A stretch of DNA of 64,000 nucleotides, taken from NCBI GenBank assembly GCA_009760855.2, contig WPIO01000017.1, positions 4,206,501 to 4,270,500 on the forward strand, read 5' to 3'. A program made the position numbers and the translations under genes. Each line of letters starts with the position of its first letter. Position 1 is the first letter of the stretch. The notes beneath the pieces are model-generated. The model had not been told where the DNA came from. It did not search any database and worked only from the letters and a program-made list of their open reading frames with translations. Shown piece after piece: positions 4,751 through 60,647 of this stretch. Source of the DNA: Cristatella mucedo. Taxonomy: Eukaryota; Bryozoa; Phylactolaemata; Cristatellidae.

Positions 4751-4759
4751 GATGAGCCG

Positions 4760-4915
4760 TGAAGGCACACTAGGTAAGGCGGTTGCTTTTCACGACCTCG
4801 GTCCCGAGGTCATTATTCGATCATGCGGTGGGCGATTTTTTGTTGCCGCTGCAAGCGGTGGTGATAGCTGTAAAGGCTCATCTGTCGCTATACAAAAGAG
4901 GCTGCTAAACCAGCT
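4760..4915 (+). mobile_element. SINE2 copy
   Basis: Head 'cacactaggtaaggcggttg' with tRNA-like A-box character, then the body common to this family: 'cgctgcaagcggtggtgata', 'taaaggctc', 'tcgctatacaaaagaggctg' and a final 'aaaccagct'. The B-box region is degenerate, so this copy is probably transcriptionally dead. Confidence 0.85.
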
Positions 4916-5234
4916 AGTATTTGTATGTATCGCAAGGCCGCGTGCAAGCAACCAGTAGCATTGGACGATGGTCGAAAATGATGCACATCGACGCACTCAG
5001 TGTAGTCATCGGCGTGACCTATTACAATCATGTTTCAGTAGCAAAGGTCAAGGTAACGCTGCATAGCAGCCCACGCGGCTGGTTGCTGGGCAAGATCTGC
5101 GACTAACTGGGCCAGAAAATCTGACCATTATATGGAGCAAGATTTTTCTGCTGAGAGCATGCCATTGGTAAACACCGCGGTTGTTGTCTTTTTATAGGGC
5201 TAAATTGTTGGCGTGAAAAATTTTTTCTGGAAAT

Positions 5235-11639: not shown

Positions 11640-12592
11640 AGTAGTCTAGTTTTATACCAACTGCTAAAACTTGGGTTTGTTTGGATACGGATACCACGTC
11701 TAAGTTGGTCCATGCATTCGTGACATCTCGTCTTGACTTCTGTAACTCACTGCATGCTGGCCTACCGGCATGTGGAATCAGGTGATTACAGCTGGTGGAA
11801 AACTCTGCAGCCAGGCTTGTCTGTCGTGAGCATCGCAGTTGCCACATCACACCACTTCTTGGCGACCTGCACTGGCTAAAAAAAAATACTAGCTGATTTA
11901 ACAGCCTCTTTTTGTATAGAGACAGAAGAGACTTTACGGCTATCACCACCGCTTGTAGTGGCGATAAAGGATCGCCCACTGCAGGATTCGAGCCCATCAC
12001 ATCGGGGCCGAGGTTGTGAAAAGCAACCGCCTTACCTAGTGAGCCATTACGGCTACCAGTCAAGCAACGGATCGACTTCAAGATTTTGTCGCTTACTTTT
12101 AGATCACTTCATTCTTTGGCTCCAGCCTGTCTCTCAGATCTACTCCCCCACCAGGCCAAGCATCGTACCACCCGCTTTTCGGGTTCCAACAGTCTACCAA
12201 TACCTCGTACAAACCTCAAATCCTTTGGAGACCGTGCATTCAGTTCGTATGCTCCCAAAGCCTGGAACTCACTCCCGACTTACGTCAGAACATCTCCTGA
12301 CTTGACCACATTTAAAAAAAACTTAAAAGCACACCTATTTAGGACAGCATTTAGTGGGTCCCTGTGATTCGTCCTTCGTACGCTTATGCGCGTTGACAGG
12401 GTGCATGCTGCCACTAACCACACTTGCATGCTGACCCTGTGCATGTCACCCCTAAGCATGTTATTCTTGGCCTTTATCAAGCATGATACCGCTTACCATT
12501 CTACCGTGCTTCCAGTACAGTACAAGTAAAGTGCCTAGAAACAGATTAAGTTCTCTGATGGCGCTATATCAAATGCCTTTTTTATTATTATG
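11640..12592 (+). mobile_element. L2-A LINE, 3' half, interrupted by a SINE2
   Basis: Encodes the C-terminal part of the L2-type reverse transcriptase polyprotein: a segment corresponding to 'DTTSKLVHAFVTSCLHFCNS' of the 39-41 kb copy, then, after the SINE at 11879-12045, frames with 'LTFRSLHSLAPACLSDLLPH' and 'AFSSYAPKAWNSLPT'. It ends with the usual 3' UTR, tail hairpin and (TTA)n. Multiple frameshifts and the nested SINE make it dead. Confidence 0.88.
11879..12045 (-). mobile_element. SINE2 nested in L2-A
   Basis: A reverse-oriented SINE2 splits the L2 codons for 'LHWLPV' (compare the intact copy at 40.5 kb). The host motif 'ggcta' is present on both sides (11874-11878 and 12051-12055), consistent with a short target-site duplication. 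The B-box complement 'ggattcgagcc' is preserved. Confidence 0.87.
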
Positions 12593-17148: not shown

Positions 17149-17543
17149 ATATATGCCTGCCATGAGGGCCAGGCATAACCTAATCCTGTACCGTCTGTTC
17201 AACGCCCGGCCGGATCACCTTCGGCAGTGGACGACGCTAGATAAATGTGCTTCGGTGAGCTACAGCTCACTGCGCCCGGACCTCGTTGTCGACAATGGAA
17301 CAACCGCAGTTATTATCGACGTGGCGATCCCATTTCACAGCGACGAGGATAGGATGCCCCGGGCGAAGGCCACGGATCGAAAGATCACAAAATACGCAGG
17401 CATAGCGCATGACTTTCGGTCCCAATGTCTAGCGGCGGCGTCGGCTCTGATGTTTGTAATAGGAGCACTCGGTCGCGGTACCCGGGTAACGAGCGGTGCC
17501 TCGATCCCCTTGGCACCAAAACAACGTACCGGAAGCTCTTCCG

Positions 17544-17694
17544 TGATGGCTCACTAGGTAAGGCGGTTGCTTTTCACGACCTCGGCGCCGAGTTCGAATC
17601 CTGCGGTGGGCGATTCTGTATCGCCACTGCAAGCGGTGGTGATAGCCGTAAAGGCTCTTCCGTCGCTATACAAAAAGAGGTTGTTAAATCAGCT
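17544..17694 (+). mobile_element. SINE2 reference copy with 10-bp target duplication
   Basis: 151 bp flanked by 'agctcttccg' (17534-17543) and 'agcacttccg' (17695-17704), a 10-bp duplication with one mismatch. This fixes the SINE2 ends: it starts 'tgatggctcactagg' and ends 'ttaaatcagct'. Internal B-box 'gttcgaatcc' is exact. It splits the host-LINE codons for 'RKLFR/FRKLCVSD'. Confidence 0.95.
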
Positions 17695-17879
17695 AGCACT
17701 TCCGAAAACTGTGCGTCAGCGACACAGTTCGCGGCAGCGCCGAGGTGTGGGCCCAGTTCTCCGCGGATGGAGGCGACCGTGTCGTCGTTCGGCATAGTAT
17801 CGCTCAGCCGCGAGGGAGAACTGCATACTATCTGCGCTTGCACAAAAGCTTGTGATTTTTCAACAAAATATTTTTAATT

Positions 17880-29304: not shown

Positions 29305-29468
29305 AGTGGCACACTAGGTAAGACGGTTGCTTTTCACGACCTCGGTCCCGAGGTAGTGAGTTCGAATCCTGCGGTGGGCGATTCTTTATCGCCACTGCAA
29401 GCTGAGATGATAGCCGCAAAGGCTCTTTTGTCACTATACAAAAGAGGCTTTTGAATTAGCTAGTATTT
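29305..29468 (+). mobile_element. SINE2 copy
   Basis: 'gtggcacactaggtaagacg' head, B-box 'gttcgaatcc' exact, body 'attctttatcgccactgcaa', end 'gctcttttgtcactataca' and 'aaagaggctttt'. The following 29469-29954 has nothing recognised. Confidence 0.94.
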
Positions 29469-29954
29469 ATTGCCATCAGACACCACGGTTGCGGCTGGTC
29501 TGCTTATTGCAAATAAACATTTGCGTGTGCATTCACGACTTTATAGAGTGATTTCGGAGTCTCGGCAGAGAACTAACCTAAGGAACCTGACGCTTCTGAA
29601 CCATTCCTATCGCTAGACAAAACCTTTGTTCTCAGACCCATTGCAGATGACCGCTAGTGGTTTAATGGTATGAAAATAACGACTGCTACGCGGCCATGGC
29701 TTTGGCAGTGGATACAATTGATGCGTTGTGGATTTAGTGCACCACTTGAATTATCCAGCGACGACAATGCTGCCATTATCTTGACGTGGATAAAAGCATG
29801 TAAAATAACAAAACTTAGATTTTGTATTGTTCTCCAATAGAATTTAAATTACGTTCTGGGAACTTTACATATTCTGGAAAGGAAGCTAGTCAAATGAGCA
29901 GTCATACCCTGCACAGTTTTAGCGTAACCATATAAAAGACAATTTACAAGGACG

Positions 29955-31289: not shown

Positions 31290-32921
<1,632 letters not shown>

Positions 32922-33019: not shown

Positions 33020-33373
33020 TATGGTCAAGCTCTTTTAGACGGATCTGAAAAGACCTGTCAAACGGCGAGCCTTCAGCGTGCTACTTCAGGATCTCCGAAG
33101 TGATTTTTATAAGAACTCGAGTTTCTTTTTAGTTTGTCGAAAGAGTCTTTTGGATGGCTTGCTTTCGGAACGAGTTACTGGCTTTCCAAAAATATTGTAA
33201 GCCTAACCAAAAGCCAAGCGAATCATTAAAATAACAGCAAAAACATTAAAGTAATAAGATTGAAAGGGGACGAAAGAGCTTTGTCGAGCAGATTTCACAG
33301 ATTAGTCGTTGGGCCGCACCTATTAAGGTCGAGGTTTAGCACCGCATACCAAAGGTCTGGCTACGCCCTAGAG
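33020..33373 (+). repeat. Unclassified dispersed repeat, copy 2
   Basis: Ordered blocks shared with copy 1 at 26.34 kb: 'cttttagacggatctgaaaa', 'gacctgtcaaacggcg', 'gagcagat', 'gtcgaggtttagc', 'tctggctacg'. It is directly interrupted or bounded on the right by the SPIN-like MITE, so the repeat is older than that insertion. Confidence 0.55.
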
Positions 33374-33560
33374 CAGCGGTTCTCTACCTGTGGGTCGTGA
33401 TACCTTTGAGGGTCGGACGACCCTTTCACAGGGGTCGCCTAAGACTATCGGAAAACGTGCATTTCCACATTTTGCATACAATAATTTTATAGTTATGGGT
33501 CACCACAAAATGAGGAACTGTATTAAAGGATCGCGGCGTTAGGAAGATTGAGGAGCACTT
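33374..33560 (+). mobile_element. SPIN-like hAT MITE
   Basis: 187 bp starting 'cagcggttctctacctgtgg', continuing through 'tttcacaggggtcgcctaag' and 'gttatgggtcaccacaaaat' to 'aggaagattgaggagcactt'. The start and the complement of the end form hAT-type terminal inverted repeats (cagcggttctc...). Flanks 'ccctagag' and 'tcctaaag' agree at 6 of 8 bases, the 8-bp duplication expected for hAT elements. Established knowledge: this layout and wording match the SPIN (Space Invaders) non-autonomous hAT family. No transposase ORF is present, so it needed enzyme in trans. Confidence 0.88.
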
Positions 33561-33569
33561 TCCTAAAGG

Positions 33570-39261: not shown

Positions 39262-39360
39262 TAATAACAATATTATTAAAACACTTGATAAAGTGCCCTA
39301 AGAGAACTCAATCTCTTTCTAGGCGCATTACATTTGCTGCAAAGGAAACACGATTGAATG
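39262..39360 (-). mobile_element. L2-A tail, reverse orientation
   Basis: 'gataaagtgccctaagagaa' followed by 'ctcaatctctttctaggcgc' and 'tttgctgcaaaggaaac'. It stands back to back with the long plus-strand L2-A that follows. Confidence 0.88.
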
Positions 39361-39364
39361 TTTA

Positions 39365-41045
39365 GTGGTAGCATGCTCGATGTCATTGGCCACAGATCAT
39401 GTCCCAGCACCTTTCCAAAAAGCTGTAGTCAGGCCACTTCTCAAGAAATCAACACTAGACCAAGAGAACTTGAGCAGCTATCGCCCAGTCTCCCTTCTAC
39501 CATTCCTATCAAAGACATTGGAATGGGTCGTGGCGGACCAGCTGAACTCATTTATCGAAACTTCAAACCTTGCTAGTAAGTTCCAGTCTGGCTTTAGAGC
39601 GAATCACTCCACAGAGTCAGCATTGCTTAGGGTGCACAACGACCTACTTAGGAATTCAGATATAGGTAGAGTGTCTCTGCTTGTTTTGCTCAATCTTTCG
39701 GCAGCTCTTGATACTATCGATCACAGAGTTCTTCTAGAGCGCCTCTCATCTCGCCTGGGCATCACTGGCACTGCTCTTGCAATGGTTCAGGTTGTATCTC
39801 AGTGGAAGACTCCAGAGTATTGACGTGAATGGACAAAGATCAACCAAGGTACCTCTGAAATATGGGGTACCTCAGGGCTCCGTGCTAGGTCCGGTTATTT
39901 TCAAGGTTTATACTCTCTCTCTCTTGCTCATGTGCTTGCCGAGCACAATCTAGGCTTTCACTTCTATGCGGACGACACTCATTTGTACCATTGCTTTGAT
40001 CCCTCCCAGCCTTCGAGCACCTCAAATTCTCTCAACTCACATGCTGCATGTATTGATGTCATCTGCGCATGGATGGCAGCACATTTTCTAAAACTGAGTG
40101 ATGATAAAACCAACTTACTAGTTATGGGCAAACCCAGTGTGATTCAGAGATTGGAAAGGCTGACGCTCAAAATTGGCTCTGCCAGCATATTTCCTGTTGA
40201 ATCAGCTCGAAATCTAAGTGTCATGTTCCAAAGTGACCTCTCGTTAGATGACCACATCAGCTTCACAGTCAGGTCTGCCTACTTTCAGCTACATAACATT
40301 GCTAAAATTCGGGCTTGTTTAGATAAGGATACCACGTCAAAGTTGGTCCATGCATTTGTGACATCTTGTCTTCACTTCTGTAACTCACTGCTTGCTGGCC
40401 TACCGGCATGTGCAATCAGGCGATTACAGCTGGTGCAAAACTCTGAAGCTAGGCTTGTCTGTCGTGAGCATTGCAGTTGCCACATCACACCACTTCTCAC
40501 AGACCTGCACTGGCTACCAGTCGAGCAACGGATTGACTTCAAGGTTACGTCGTTCACTTTTAGGTCACTTCATTCTTTGGCTCCAGCCTATCTCTCAGAT
40601 CTACTCCCCCACCGGGCCAAGCATCATACCACCCACTTTTCGGAATCCAGCAGTTTACCAATACCTCATACAAACCTTAAATCCTTTGGAGACCATGCAT
40701 TTAGTTCGTATGCTCTCAAAGCCTGGAACTCACTCCCGACTTGCGGCACAACATCCCCTGACTTGACCACATTTAAAAAGAACTTAAAAACACACCTATT
40801 TATGAGAGCATTTAGTGGGTCCCTGTGATTCGTTCTTCATGTGCTTATGCGTGCTGATACTGTGCATGCTGCCACTAACCACATTTGCAGGCTGACCCTG
40901 TGCATGTCACCCCTAACCATGTTATTTATGTTGTTTACCAAGCATGATATTACTCGCCACTCAATCTCGTTTCCTTTTGCAGCAAATGCAAAGCGCGTAG
41001 GATGAGATTGAGGTATCTGAGGGCGCGTTATGTGATGTATCTCCG
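39365..41045 (+). mobile_element. L2-A LINE, longest copy (reverse transcriptase to tail)
   Basis: Two long frames joined by one frameshift near 39.80 kb. Frame 1 (152 codons): 'KAVVRPLLKKSTLDQENLSS', YRPVSLLPFLSKTLEWV, FRANHSTESALLRVHNDLL, LLVLLNLSAALDTIDHR. Between frames: YGVPQGSVLGPVIF. Frame 2 (298 codons): HNLGFHFYADDTHLYHCF with the YADD box, FLKLSDDKTNLLVMGKPS, DLHWLPVEQRIDFKV, KAWNSLPT. In frame 1 the palm Asp-rich box has Ala-Leu-Asp for the usual Ala-Phe-Asp. Then comes the L2-A 3' UTR and a mutated tail. The endonuclease and ORF1 are absent, so it is 5'-truncated and inactive, but it is the best reference for the family. Confidence 0.93.
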
Positions 41046-42060: not shown

Positions 42061-42171
42061 CTTCAGTATGATGGCCTAAGCATTACACTCGCTTGCATTT
42101 TTATGCTGGATAGCATGCATGGCACTAACCCTTGATTATTGATCCTGCTGTAGCTATCGTGACAAATAATC

Positions 42172-42324
42172 CTGGCTGATTTAACAGCCTCATTTTTATA
42201 GTAGCAGAAGAGCTTGTGTGGCTATCACCACTGCTTTCAGTTGGCAATATTCAATCACCCAACTGCAGGATTCGATCCCACGACCTGGGTCGTGAAGAGC
42301 GTGCGCCTTCGCTTCTGGGCTACT
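42172..42324 (-). mobile_element. SINE2 copy plus adjoining tail remnant
   Basis: 'ctggctgatttaacagcctc' is the SINE2 3' end in reverse; the body and the B-box complement 'ggattcgatcc' follow. Immediately right (42325-42390) a plus-strand SINE1-type tail reads 'gtgaagcgcctagatagtga' and 'gggcgctatgcaaat'. Confidence 0.88.
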
Positions 42325-42546: not shown

Positions 42547-45429
42547 TCAGCTCTCAATGCTCGTGCCCGAGCCGTGCTTATCGCGAAGTTTATCGACCGA
42601 TACGCTTTTGCAGCCGTAAAGCTGCAATGATTTGAGCGACTTCCTGACGGTGAGCAAATGGTCTAGGCACGCATCAGACACGTTGCAAAAGTTGAGCTTG
42701 AGGGTTCTTAGACGCGGCCAACTCTCCGCCAGGCGAAGCACTCCATCCGAAGATATGCTCGTCGAGCTGGCGTCGAATGCCTCCATGTTCGGGCAGCTCG
42801 AGAACAGTGCGCCGAGCGCGGCCGCGTCAAAAGCCTTGCACGACGACACGTCCAGCGAGATCAGATCGAGCTTGCATGCGATCTCGACCAGCGCCCTACT
42901 GCTCAGACCGACACAGTTAGACACGACGAGCTGACGCACGTGCCGGCAGGCGCTGCACAGCTTCGCCATCGTGCCGTCGCTTGTCTGCTTGAGGCCTCTC
43001 AGGTCCAGCGAGCGCAGGCCGTCAAGCCGACGGACGAGCGAGGCGATGGACGCGTCCGTCAGCCTGTAGCACTGGCCGACGTTGACGATCTCGAGGCTCG
43101 CGCACCGACGCAGTGCGCTCAGCCCCTTCGGCGTCACGCGGAAGCAGCCAAACAGCTCGAGCTGCCGAAGGCGGGCCGACAGCGAGCCCGCGATCACCTC
43201 GAGGCCAGCGTCAGTGACGGCCTGGCAGCCGTTGAGTACCAGCTCGGCCAGCGCGGGCAGGCTCCTGCACGCGGCGTCCACGTCGCCGTCCGACAAGCCG
43301 CACCAGCTGACGTTCAGGTGGACAATGCTGGCGCAGTGCACGGCGGCGTGCCGCACCAGGCGGTCGCCGGCGAGCGGCGGCTCCGCGCAGCCGGTGACGT
43401 CCAGGTTGAGCAGCCGGTCGCCGCAGGCACGAAAGGCGCGAGCCAGGCCGCCGTCGGTCACGGCCTCGCCGTCGGGCTTCGTGCCCGAGCAGTGAGCCAG
43501 GGCGAGGCTCGCCGGTCGCTTCTGGCAGATGGCAAGCAGCTCGCCGTCGGACAGCTTCTTCTTGGCCACCGTCACGGCGCGCCACAGCGACGGGTCGCCA
43601 GCGAGCCGGCGCAGGTGCGCGCACGTCTGCATGCATCGGCCGAGGTCCGCCGGCAGCAGGCACCGCATGACGCTCAGCCACATCTCGTCTGGCAGGCACT
43701 GCCACGGCGACAGCTCGCCACTCTGGATGCGCGGCGTGCACTCGGCCAGACGGGCGTAGACGGTGTCCTCCCGGGCGGCCGCCGTGGCGGTGCTCCGAGG
43801 CCGGGCTCGCCGGCCGACGGCGCCAGAAGCTCCGCTCGCCGGCGGCCGAGCTGCGTCGTCGCGGGGCAATGACGGGGCGAACGAAGTAATGTCGGCGTCG
43901 CCGCCGCCATTGTCGATGAACTCGTCGTCGATGAGCTCGTCGTCGCCTGGGACGAAAGCCGAGCTGACTCTCGCCGCGCCAACCTTTGTCGACCTCAGCG
44001 TCGGCTCGGAGGCCGGCAGTGCCGCGTCTCTCCGCCCTTGCTCGCTCGGCCGCCGGCTCGCGGCCGCCACAGGCGGCGACCAGCTGCTGCCCAGGACGGT
44101 GGCGGCGCCCGCCGCCGCCGCCGCCGCCTCGCTGGGAGGATTGGGTCGGCTCGGCTTGTGCCGCCCGACGTTTCCATCGAGCGGGGCGCTGCCGCCAGCG
44201 GCCTCCGAGGCGGCGCGTGTACGAGCCGGATGTTGAGGCCTGCTCCTGCGGGCCGGTTCCCGAGTGGCCTCCTCCGCCGAAACGGCCGGCAGCGGCTCGG
44301 CCGAGCGCCGAGTCGACGCTGCTTTCCCAGCCGCGGCGGCGGCGGGGGCGGCGGCTGGGAAAGCAGCGGTCGCTGGCTCGGGCGCTTTGGGCATGTCGCT
44401 TCTGGCGCGAGCTATCTCGGGCTTGGACAAAGCGTGCCTCGGCACTTCTTTGCGTGCATTCTGGAGCTCAGCTGACGCCGAGGCTATCGTCGACAGATCG
44501 ATGGGCGGCACTCTCGGAGCTTTGGCGGGCGCTGCCGAGACGGCAGAGTTCTTGGCGGCTGCAGCACCGGTACCAGCGGAAGAGTTGGATGTTTCGCGAA
44601 CCATTCTTTCCGTCCTGTCGATAAGTGACCTAGAACGAGCCATGTCCTGGGTGTCCGACTCGTACCGGACAGATGACGCCGGAACGACGACTGCGGCTTC
44701 GAACGCCTCGTCCTCGAGCCGTCGAGCGACTTGTCGGAGTGGTGGCTCGCCTGCGTCTCGAGACCGCGCCGGAGCGCCATCGCTCGCTAGAGCTGCGCGT
44801 GTCCAATGATTAGCAGCCTCCGGAACGCCGCCGGAAGGATCGAAATGGCGGTCACGCGCTTGCTCGCATTCGCCGTCGTCGAAGGCGGGGGTGGGGTGGT
44901 CGTGGACCTGCGACGACGCCAGCGATGAGGCCGAACCGTCGAACCTGATGGCATGGGCGCGACCGAGATTGATAAAGGGCTGTCTGTTGAGCTTCCCAGA
45001 TCGCTCTTCTCTATGCCTTGAGAAGTCCATAAACTCCCTGACCGTGTCGCTCCACGCGGACCTCGCCGGCGGTGGCGGTGGCGGAGGCACGTCGACGACC
45101 CGATCAGCCCGAGGCGGACTGGGACGATCGAGCGACGGGTGGCTGTCAGCATTTTCAGAAATTCGTGGGCTATTTGATCTAGCCCAATCACTGAAATTCG
45201 CTTTCGCGTAGATTTGCTCGCTAGTAAACGACACGGTCACTTCCTTCTGCTCGTAGTTCCGCGAAGCCGAACCCGGTAGGCCCCACCAGGCTGCCGAAAG
45301 GCTGTCGCCTTTCTGGGTGAGATCCGTTTGCCTCCTGACGCCGGCCAAAAGGCCGTCTTTGGAAAGGTCCTGATAATATCTCACGGTGGGGCGGTGAGTA
45401 CGCAATCCATAGTCGAGCTGGCTATCCAT
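42547..45429 (-). CDS. F-box/leucine-rich-repeat protein, intronless
   Basis: A single frame of 960 codons from ATG 45429 (the open frame extends 18 codons further, but without an ATG). Residues ~1-570 are low-complexity and probably disordered, with a Pro7 run at about 115-121, Ala/Pro-rich stretches and RS/RRP segments. Residues ~574-621 are an F-box (LSPWQCLPDEMW, then C.QTCAHLRRLAGDPSLWRAV). From ~625 to the end run about 12 leucine-rich repeats of the Cys-containing type (LNLDVTGC, HLNVSWCGLSD, ELVLNGCQAVTDAGL, QLELFGCFRVT, SLDLRGLKQTSD, SLQLYGCKSV). Family knowledge: the F-box binds SKP1 in SCF ubiquitin ligases and the LRRs recruit substrate. It resembles the FBXL group, but I cannot assign an orthologue, and a 570-residue N-terminus is unusually long. 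Codon use is very GC-rich and overlapping opposite-strand frames are shadows. A weak TATA-like 'ttaatata' lies at 45577-45584. Confidence 0.85.
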   Translation of the reverse strand: MDSQLDYGLRTHRPTVRYYQDLSKDGLLAGVRRQTDLTQKGDSLSAAWWGLPGSASRNYEQKEVTVSFTSEQIYAKANFSDWARSNSPRISENADSHPSLDRPSPPRADRVVDVPPPPPPPARSAWSDTVREFMDFSRHREERSGKLNRQPFINLGRAHAIRFDGSASSLASSQVHDHPTPAFDDGECEQARDRHFDPSGGVPEAANHWTRAALASDGAPARSRDAGEPPLRQVARRLEDEAFEAAVVVPASSVRYESDTQDMARSRSLIDRTERMVRETSNSSAGTGAAAAKNSAVSAAPAKAPRVPPIDLSTIASASAELQNARKEVPRHALSKPEIARARSDMPKAPEPATAAFPAAAPAAAAAGKAASTRRSAEPLPAVSAEEATREPARRSRPQHPARTRAASEAAGGSAPLDGNVGRHKPSRPNPPSEAAAAAAGAATVLGSSWSPPVAAASRRPSEQGRRDAALPASEPTLRSTKVGAARVSSAFVPGDDELIDDEFIDNGGGDADITSFAPSLPRDDAARPPASGASGAVGRRARPRSTATAAAREDTVYARLAECTPRIQSGELSPWQCLPDEMWLSVMRCLLPADLGRCMQTCAHLRRLAGDPSLWRAVTVAKKKLSDGELLAICQKRPASLALAHCSGTKPDGEAVTDGGLARAFRACGDRLLNLDVTGCAEPPLAGDRLVRHAAVHCASIVHLNVSWCGLSDGDVDAACRSLPALAELVLNGCQAVTDAGLEVIAGSLSARLRQLELFGCFRVTPKGLSALRRCASLEIVNVGQCYRLTDASIASLVRRLDGLRSLDLRGLKQTSDGTMAKLCSACRHVRQLVVSNCVGLSSRALVEIACKLDLISLDVSSCKAFDAAALGALFSSCPNMEAFDASSTSISSDGVLRLAESWPRLRTLKLNFCNVSDACLDHLLTVRKSLKSLQLYGCKSVSVDKLRDKHGSGTSIES

Positions 45430-46077
45430 GCCCGCCGAGCGTATGAAAGTGGAAGCACACCGGAAGGCCGAGTCCGGATCCAAGCGGCTACGTCAGGCTG
45501 CTACCATGGTCACGGCCTTGACTCAGCGAGCGGAGTTAAGCCGCTCCCAGCCAGGCCGCGAGCCACTACCGCTAGGTTAATATACCGAAACCTCGTGAGT
45601 GAATGCCTCCAGCCGAAGCCTGAGCAGCGTAGAGGCTGTTTGTGCCAAGCTGTGTGTGGGCCGCCTCGCGCTGGGGCACGCCACCCACGCAAGACGCACT
45701 TCCCTGCGGCGGCAGCGTCCTTTGACCCTCGTGGCGAACCAAACCCCCACAAGGTAGTCTTTAACAACTGGAACAAGGAAGAGCCACGGACTAAGGACTG
45801 AGAGCTTCGTGCAGAATAGCTGAGGTCTATCTGAGCATCTCCTGGATCAGCTTGCAATCCATGGACTCGGCTGCAGCTTCGGTGCAGCGGTGCCGTTATT
45901 ACAAACGTGGTGTGCGGCTTCCACGTCCGATCAAAACTAGGTAGCAAACGCAGCGCTCGTAACGGTGCTAGTCTCAGCCAATGTGTGCAGAATACCGGCA
46001 ACGCTTGACCCGTGTAGCACGGCTAGAGACTTGTAGGTGCTGCACCAATGCACGAAGTTATGCCGACAGTAGCAGTA
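45430..46077. other. Upstream region of the F-box gene
   Basis: Opposite-strand frames here have no recognisable family. This should hold the gene's promoter and 5' leader. No repeats recognised until the L2 at 46.08 kb. Confidence 0.5.
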
Positions 46078-59849: not shown

Positions 59850-59990
59850 CCTACCTCTTTAAGACCCGGGTCATGGGTCCTAGTCCTGAAGGGGGGGATC
59901 CTGTATTGCCCACTGAAAGTAGTTGTGATAGCCGTTAAGGCTCTTCTGCTGCTATATTAATGAGGCTGTTGAATCACCTAGCCTACATTT
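59850..59990 (+). mobile_element. SINE2 variant copy
   Basis: 'ctgtattgcccactgaaagt', 'gtgatagccgttaaggctct', 'tctgctgctatattaatgag' and 'gctgttgaatcacct' follow the variant at 52.7 kb. The head is degraded. 59991-60647 has nothing else recognised apart from (TTA)n near 60396. Confidence 0.7.
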
Positions 59991-60647
59991 TTTTACTGCA
60001 TCGATTTGGCAGTTGCACCCATTCAGCCGTTGTAGTCACTTCTAATTGCCAGGTGGTCCACATTAATCCCAGATGTGTATCATGTTAATGATAATCGTTG
60101 GCCATTGCTGTAATTCTTTATCGGTTGCGTTTGTTCCTGTTTTGCTCTTGACGTGCATACTAACCCTCTGTTAAGTGAGAGGCTTTCCAGCCTTGTAGGC
60201 CTCAGAGCTCAGAAGGTCTGCATCTTGGTGAATGTGTACTCAGTAGTATATTTGTCTCTTCGAAAGCATGCATTGTGTTTGGCCAGTGGTTTGCAGCAGC
60301 TAATGTGCTGCCATTTTTTGAAGAATACCTTGTAGATGTAAGATAAACTGCTAAACGTTGCCTGTTTTTTCTTAGGATGTGATACAATTGTCTTGTTATT
60401 ATTATTATTATTACTGACTCAATAGTTGTCACATTGTCAACAGGGTTCCTACTTTGCACGAACTTTCAAAGTTTGCCTGATGCTTAGAAATTACCCAATG
60501 ACCGGTCCTTCTCGTGAAAGCAGACCCACCCTGCCCACCCTGAACAATGATTGTGCAGTGTCACTTCTTGATGCCCACCACTTTGCTCAGCCACTTGTGA
60601 AATTTAAGTAAATGAGTGAAGGTCGTCTTATTCAACAGTCTCGTGTA

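Follow-up and report, generated by a model that had tools for sequence, protein, structure and literature searches.

A dead SPIN-type MITE copy in an invertebrate genome and its probable descent from a horizontally acquired long SPIN element

SPIN (SPACE INVADERS) elements and their non-autonomous SPIN_NA derivatives occur in tetrapods, as Pace et al. reportedly described in 2008, and Lymnaea is reportedly a further SPIN host. In the bug Rhodnius prolixus, one report records SPIN with the families SPIN_NA_12_RP and SPIN_NA_13_RP, and puts the identity of four transferred families, taken together, to vertebrate copies at a maximum of about 98.1% (PMC11614815). A hAT element with about 1,000 copies and significant identity to SPIN is recorded in Biomphalaria glabrata, where no intact DNA transposases were detected (PMC5440852). 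A non-exhaustive literature search aimed at SPIN returned no invertebrate host beyond Rhodnius and Biomphalaria.

The family analyzed here has the same sequence blocks, terminal repeats, 8-bp duplications, and combination of few long elements with many MITEs as SPIN/SPIN_NA of tetrapods, from which it differs by an internal deletion of its own and a 20-bp join. The Rhodnius families, as described, are likewise SPIN MITEs in an invertebrate, but in a blood-feeding insect, unlike the present host, whereas the SPIN-like hAT of B. glabrata likewise resides in a lophotrochozoan at a similar copy number, in a host whose pulmonate mitochondrial gene order is not the order found here. We read the element as a SPIN MITE (hAT, Buster-like) that is now dead, in a host where a long SPIN element would have arrived horizontally, bred a burst of MITEs, and then decayed, and we assign this reading a probability of roughly 0.93.

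The element lies in a 64,000-nucleotide window (the whole stretch of DNA analyzed), at positions 33374..33560 on the plus strand, exactly the coordinates and the 187-bp length given in the earlier note, which had described a SPIN-like hAT MITE in an invertebrate genome. It is full length, beginning with CAGCGGTTCTC at 33374 and terminating with ...GAGCACTT at 33560 (longer ends: 5' CAGCGGTTCTCTACCTGTGGGTCGTGA..., 3' ...GATTGAGGAGCACTT), and differs from a 40-copy host consensus at 20 of 186 aligned bases. The imperfect 8-bp duplication that had been noticed is borne out by the flanks CCCTAGAG (33366..33373) and TCCTAAAG (33561..33568), which agree at 6 of 8 positions, a level reached by 0.74% of the position pairs of the same spacing in the window; the 2 mismatches compare with about 1.7 expected for two decayed duplications. 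The 15-bp terminal inverted repeats are imperfect, again as described: the left one (33374..33388, plus strand) carries a single change from the family consensus CAGCGGTTCTCAACC, and the right one (33546..33560, minus strand) has decayed, with 9 of 15 positions paired here (matched by 0.55% of window positions) versus 14 of 15 in the consensus. Between its outer limits the element consists of a left SPIN-shared block of 85 bp (33374..33458), a family-specific 20-bp join from which the SPIN interior is absent (33459..33478), and a right SPIN-shared block of 82 bp (33479..33560), all on the plus strand. A perfect run of 141 TA dinucleotides occupies window positions 32637-32918, 455 bp ahead of the element.

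Further copies were sought in the window's own assembly (572 Mb, 688 contigs), and the genome-wide search advocated in the earlier note proved productive, with many copies found and roughly 1,600 estimated. In the genome, a 24-mer taken from the left block has 185 exact occurrences and 1,346 when up to 3 mismatches are allowed, the backward-pattern control giving 0 in either case. A simple model of these counts, which assumes equal decay at all sites, puts the divergence per site at 8.5% and the family at about 1,570 copies. Twenty random 10-kb stretches, placed at fixed positions along five large contigs already known from the copy list, contained 2 MITE copies, 93% and 90% identical, one of them complete and flanked by the exact duplication ATTTAGTG; extrapolation from 2 copies per 200 kb gives about 5,700 copies with a very wide error. 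The consensus was built from the best 40 of 2,003 candidates, selected for likeness to the window copy, which is itself included, and these 40 copies sit on 27 contigs of the one assembly. Target duplications matching at 6 or more of 8 positions flank 31 of the 40 (exact in 13), compared with 640 of 7,780 mispaired flanks (8.2%), and 9 copies are without a duplication of that quality. The target consensus is nTCTAGAn-like, and the final base is G in 37 of 40 copies. No more than 6 pairs of flanks have a stretch in common (29-67 bp), so the insertions look independent. At CpG positions of the 40 selected copies 109 of 878 cells differ (12.4%), versus 336 of 6,589 (5.1%) elsewhere. Short terminal inverted repeats define hAT elements (PMC11008031); repeats of about 15 bp, paired at 14 of 15 positions in the consensus, and the 8-bp target-site duplications of the superfamily are both present in this 187-bp non-autonomous family. 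The calls of a MITE and of a hAT element are upheld.

The SPIN_NA-type consensus used for comparison was a working sequence, not copied from a database entry, and was fixed before the genome copies were fetched. Aligned with it, the window copy is identical at 164 of 185 bases, with 42 gap columns, nearly all of them interior, and scores 173 in local alignment, whereas the remainder of the window reaches 29 and 20 simulated 64-kb windows do not exceed 33; no second copy above chance was found by this alignment within the 64-kb window. An origin as some other host hAT MITE, SPIN-like in its terminal repeats only, would agree with the fact that similar ends are common to hAT families and with the poor pairing (9/15) of the ends of the window copy. 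However, the match is not confined to the terminal repeats, because the inner 137 bp, left after cutting 25 bp from each end, alone score 107, far beyond the maximum of 30 in 1,000 shuffles, whereas MER5A and MER20, hAT MITEs with similar ends that were tried, likewise as working sequences, as the identity of the element, score no better than shuffles.

The agreement also sharpens when the family is considered as a whole. The 40-copy host consensus matches the working SPIN consensus at 85 of 85 positions in the left block and 80 of 82 in the right block, 165 of 167 in total, and it restores the working-consensus base at nearly every block site where the window copy departs (9 left and 11 right departures in the window copy, 0 and 2 in the consensus). 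One of the two right-block differences is at the join; the other, the single majority base outside the join that differs (host GGGTCGCC versus GGGTCACC in the working consensus), is split 23 to 17 among the copies, 17 of which carry the working-consensus base. The working consensus was fixed before the copies were fetched and so predicted their sequence, which strengthens the SPIN name. In addition, the SPIN interior of the working consensus is found in three long copies described below. A SPIN-like MITE related to SPIN only through its terminal repeats has, on this evidence, very little chance of being the right identification, and generic hAT similarity is a very unlikely explanation; the SPIN-like identity originally put forward, and with it a match reaching far inside the terminal repeats, is supported by sequence comparison as SPIN-type, the name SPIN proper resting on the working consensus.

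Searches in other material gave little. Exact-pattern scans for SPIN pieces in prokaryote genomes and IMG/VR contigs hit only 7 viral contigs, through one 16-mer, at chance level (alignment scores 27-35); blastn against phage and plasmid sequences gave no match, and none of 12 SPIN sequence strings sought in paper text was found.

Long relatives of the MITEs were located with a 78-aa working query for the Buster/SPIN-type transposase C-terminus, which has at least 143 matches in the host genome (best 150 of 305 candidates scored). The best four transposase-remnant loci among the matches listed, on contigs C658, C676, C133, and C5, are 46-52% identical to the query, the C5 match being 0.5 kb away from a SPIN 24-mer. 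Of these four fetched loci, three have both SPIN ends: 2,956 bp apart on C676, 3,110 bp on C133, and 1,123 bp on C5, the last a deletion derivative. Exact 8-bp duplications flank the C5 and C133 copies; the C676 copy has both ends and no target duplication, and in the stretch fetched from C658 neither MITE end was found and the interior match scores 20, not above chance. The 56-bp part of the working SPIN consensus that is absent from the MITE can be placed, in each of the three long copies, directly within the 3' end, with alignment scores of 51, 53, and 72, against 22 in the window and at most 26 in the 20 random stretches.

The transposase frames of these elements are broken: the longest stop-free piece seen in the transposase sense measures 192 aa (C133), and Pfam and NCBIfam recognized no domain in the long-copy pieces submitted. 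The search for an autonomous hAT with matching ends that the earlier note advised found long elements carrying broken remnants that resemble a Buster/SPIN transposase. A 576-bp segment from inside one long copy is matched at 5 places in the genome, its own included; three of these matches are nearly full length, and one is on C111, where a further long copy lies near 23,757,000-23,759,100. Pairwise K2P distances between long copies are 0.173-0.209, or about 0.09-0.10 each, close to the decay of the MITEs. Few long elements with many dependent MITEs is the usual arrangement, and it is the one present in this host. Two observations concern targets: a long SPIN copy (L079 715-1837) has the target CACTAAAT, which by eye lies within a LINE-tail repeat of the window, and ATTTAGTG, the target of the unselected MITE copy at L056 5636-5823, is the reverse complement of CACTAAAT; a preferred SPIN target inside the LINE-tail repeat is possible.

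A second hAT was considered as a partner of SPIN and rejected; its ends read TAGGGCTGTACCGG, and the element aligns with the MITE at chance level only. It has a 640-aa open frame with zf-BED and hAT dimerization domains (C222:7449800-7453800), and 55 of the 138 matches listed (best 150 of 766 candidates) have an identical score, at least 15 of these 55 with frames of 635-642 aa. From its sequence, this second hAT looks recently or still active.

For the age of the SPIN-type family, the mean divergence of the 40 selected copies, 5.6%, is probably too low because they were selected for likeness to the window copy, and the 24-mer ratio together with the two unselected copies is the better guide. 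At assumed, not measured, rates of 1-5 x 10^-9 substitutions per site per year, 8.5% would translate into an age of about 17-85 million years; the idea that divergence could date the arrival is therefore realized in part, in that a divergence of ~8.5% was obtained, which is a divergence and not a date.

These data are best explained by a history in which a long SPIN element would have entered the germ line of the host by horizontal transfer, and in which its transposase would have mobilized both the parent element and a short form reduced by internal deletion to the two ends. This 187-bp form would then have multiplied to give the roughly 1,600 copies detectable now, each with an 8-bp nTCTAGAn-like target duplication. 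Eventually the reading frames of the few long copies would have been lost and transposition would have stopped, after which the copies would have decayed by ~8-9% per site. We infer that ancestors of the long copies seen here supplied the transposase to the MITEs and that no intact SPIN copy remains in the host genome; the transfer into the host, with its direction and route, would likewise belong to the reconstructed part of this history. Purely vertical descent since an ancient ancestor shared by vertebrates and the host, with no horizontal transfer, would accord with the age and wide spread of hAT elements. Horizontal transfer is usually proven by a patchy distribution among animals, and our search covered the host genome alone. 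Nevertheless, non-coding identity at 165 of 167 positions, a value that depends on the working consensus, is improbable over >500 million years, and vertical descent is argued against because the copies have decayed by 8.5% since the last burst, yet the two consensuses remain nearly identical. We accordingly regard vertical inheritance as having a slim chance at best, and favor the horizontal arrival of SPIN.

SPIN is typical of tetrapods, and vertebrate DNA in an invertebrate assembly could also yield such a copy. The Rhodnius copies came from tetrapods, according to PMC11614815. Such contamination is nonetheless very unlikely, to the point of being negligible, given that the 40 listed copies are spread over 27 contigs of one assembly, that CpG observed/expected ratios in the 5-kb flanks (0.98 and 0.91) and in 200 kb of genome (0.77) are above vertebrate levels, that mitochondrial COX1 is read with a non-vertebrate code, and that one long SPIN copy is bordered on its right by a LINE-type repeat also present in the window. 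The ratio is 0.94 over the whole window and ranges over 0.53-1.17 in single 4-kb window pieces and 0.39-1.10 in single 10-kb genome stretches, the 200 kb sampled having a GC content of 46%; the CpG ratio is lower in vertebrates.

The mitochondrial evidence comes from contig C688 (21,008 bp), where at conserved sites of COX1 AGA/AGG is read as Ser and ATA as Met, and both AAA codons fit Lys. A Macrostomum-like flatworm, brought into consideration by GC content and long exons (PMC9469890), was rejected on these codon readings. We take this code to be the invertebrate one and not that of vertebrates, flatworms/echinoderms, or cnidarians, and the host is accordingly an invertebrate, as the earlier note had held, the contaminant contig that it had entertained not being what was found. 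One strand carries nad1-nad6-cob-nad4L-nad4-nad5 contiguously (gene names assigned by eye), and the remaining gene order is unlike any known to us. Moved nad6/cob and rrnS/rrnL/nad1 blocks are described for the molluscs Conus and Ilyanassa and the brachiopod Terebratulina (PMC2639372). Code and gene order suggest a lophotrochozoan of mollusc/brachiopod grade. The contig also contains a perfect 2,119-bp direct and a 1,795-bp inverted repeat, which, with its enlargement, may be an assembly artefact or real, and rrnL lies on the other strand from the protein genes identified. Shorter COX1 matches on C166, C83, C549, and C299, some with TAA or TAG stops, are probably nuclear copies of mitochondrial DNA.

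Elsewhere in the window, a single 981-aa open frame on the minus strand (42547-45492), GC-rich and with an F-box and leucine-rich repeats, is followed by AATAAA a few bases past its stop codon. A LINE-type fragment (RVT_1; L2/CR1 type by eye) lies at 39323-40828, with related copies at 12, 15, 30, 53, and 58 kb, one pair of which is 95% identical. A family of ~170-bp repeats (4755-4928, 11881-12056, 17541-17701, 29307-29475, 42160-42309, and 59855-59995) is probably a SINE, its consensus showing by eye a tRNA-like promoter box. Six-frame Pfam scans of six 5-kb window stretches found no family; elsewhere, 10 chosen open frames were scanned.

The present genome is another host of a known traveller, SPIN. 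The proposal that it extends the host list holds in that a host is added, and the extension is modest, as SPIN or SPIN-like elements are already reported in invertebrates (PMC5440852, PMC11614815). More tentatively, and at rather less than even odds, SPIN may have made its way into a lophotrochozoan lineage, possibly a whole phylum, that lacks an earlier report, leaving a burst of MITEs and fossil long copies. If true, the transfer network of SPIN would not be limited to blood-feeders and pulmonate snails, and each added host narrows when and how SPIN crossed phyla. This host offers a measurable burst (~8.5% decay), long copies of similar age, and a consensus nearly identical to the working one for tetrapod SPIN, and with these three in hand the timing and route of SPIN would become testable, given relatives.
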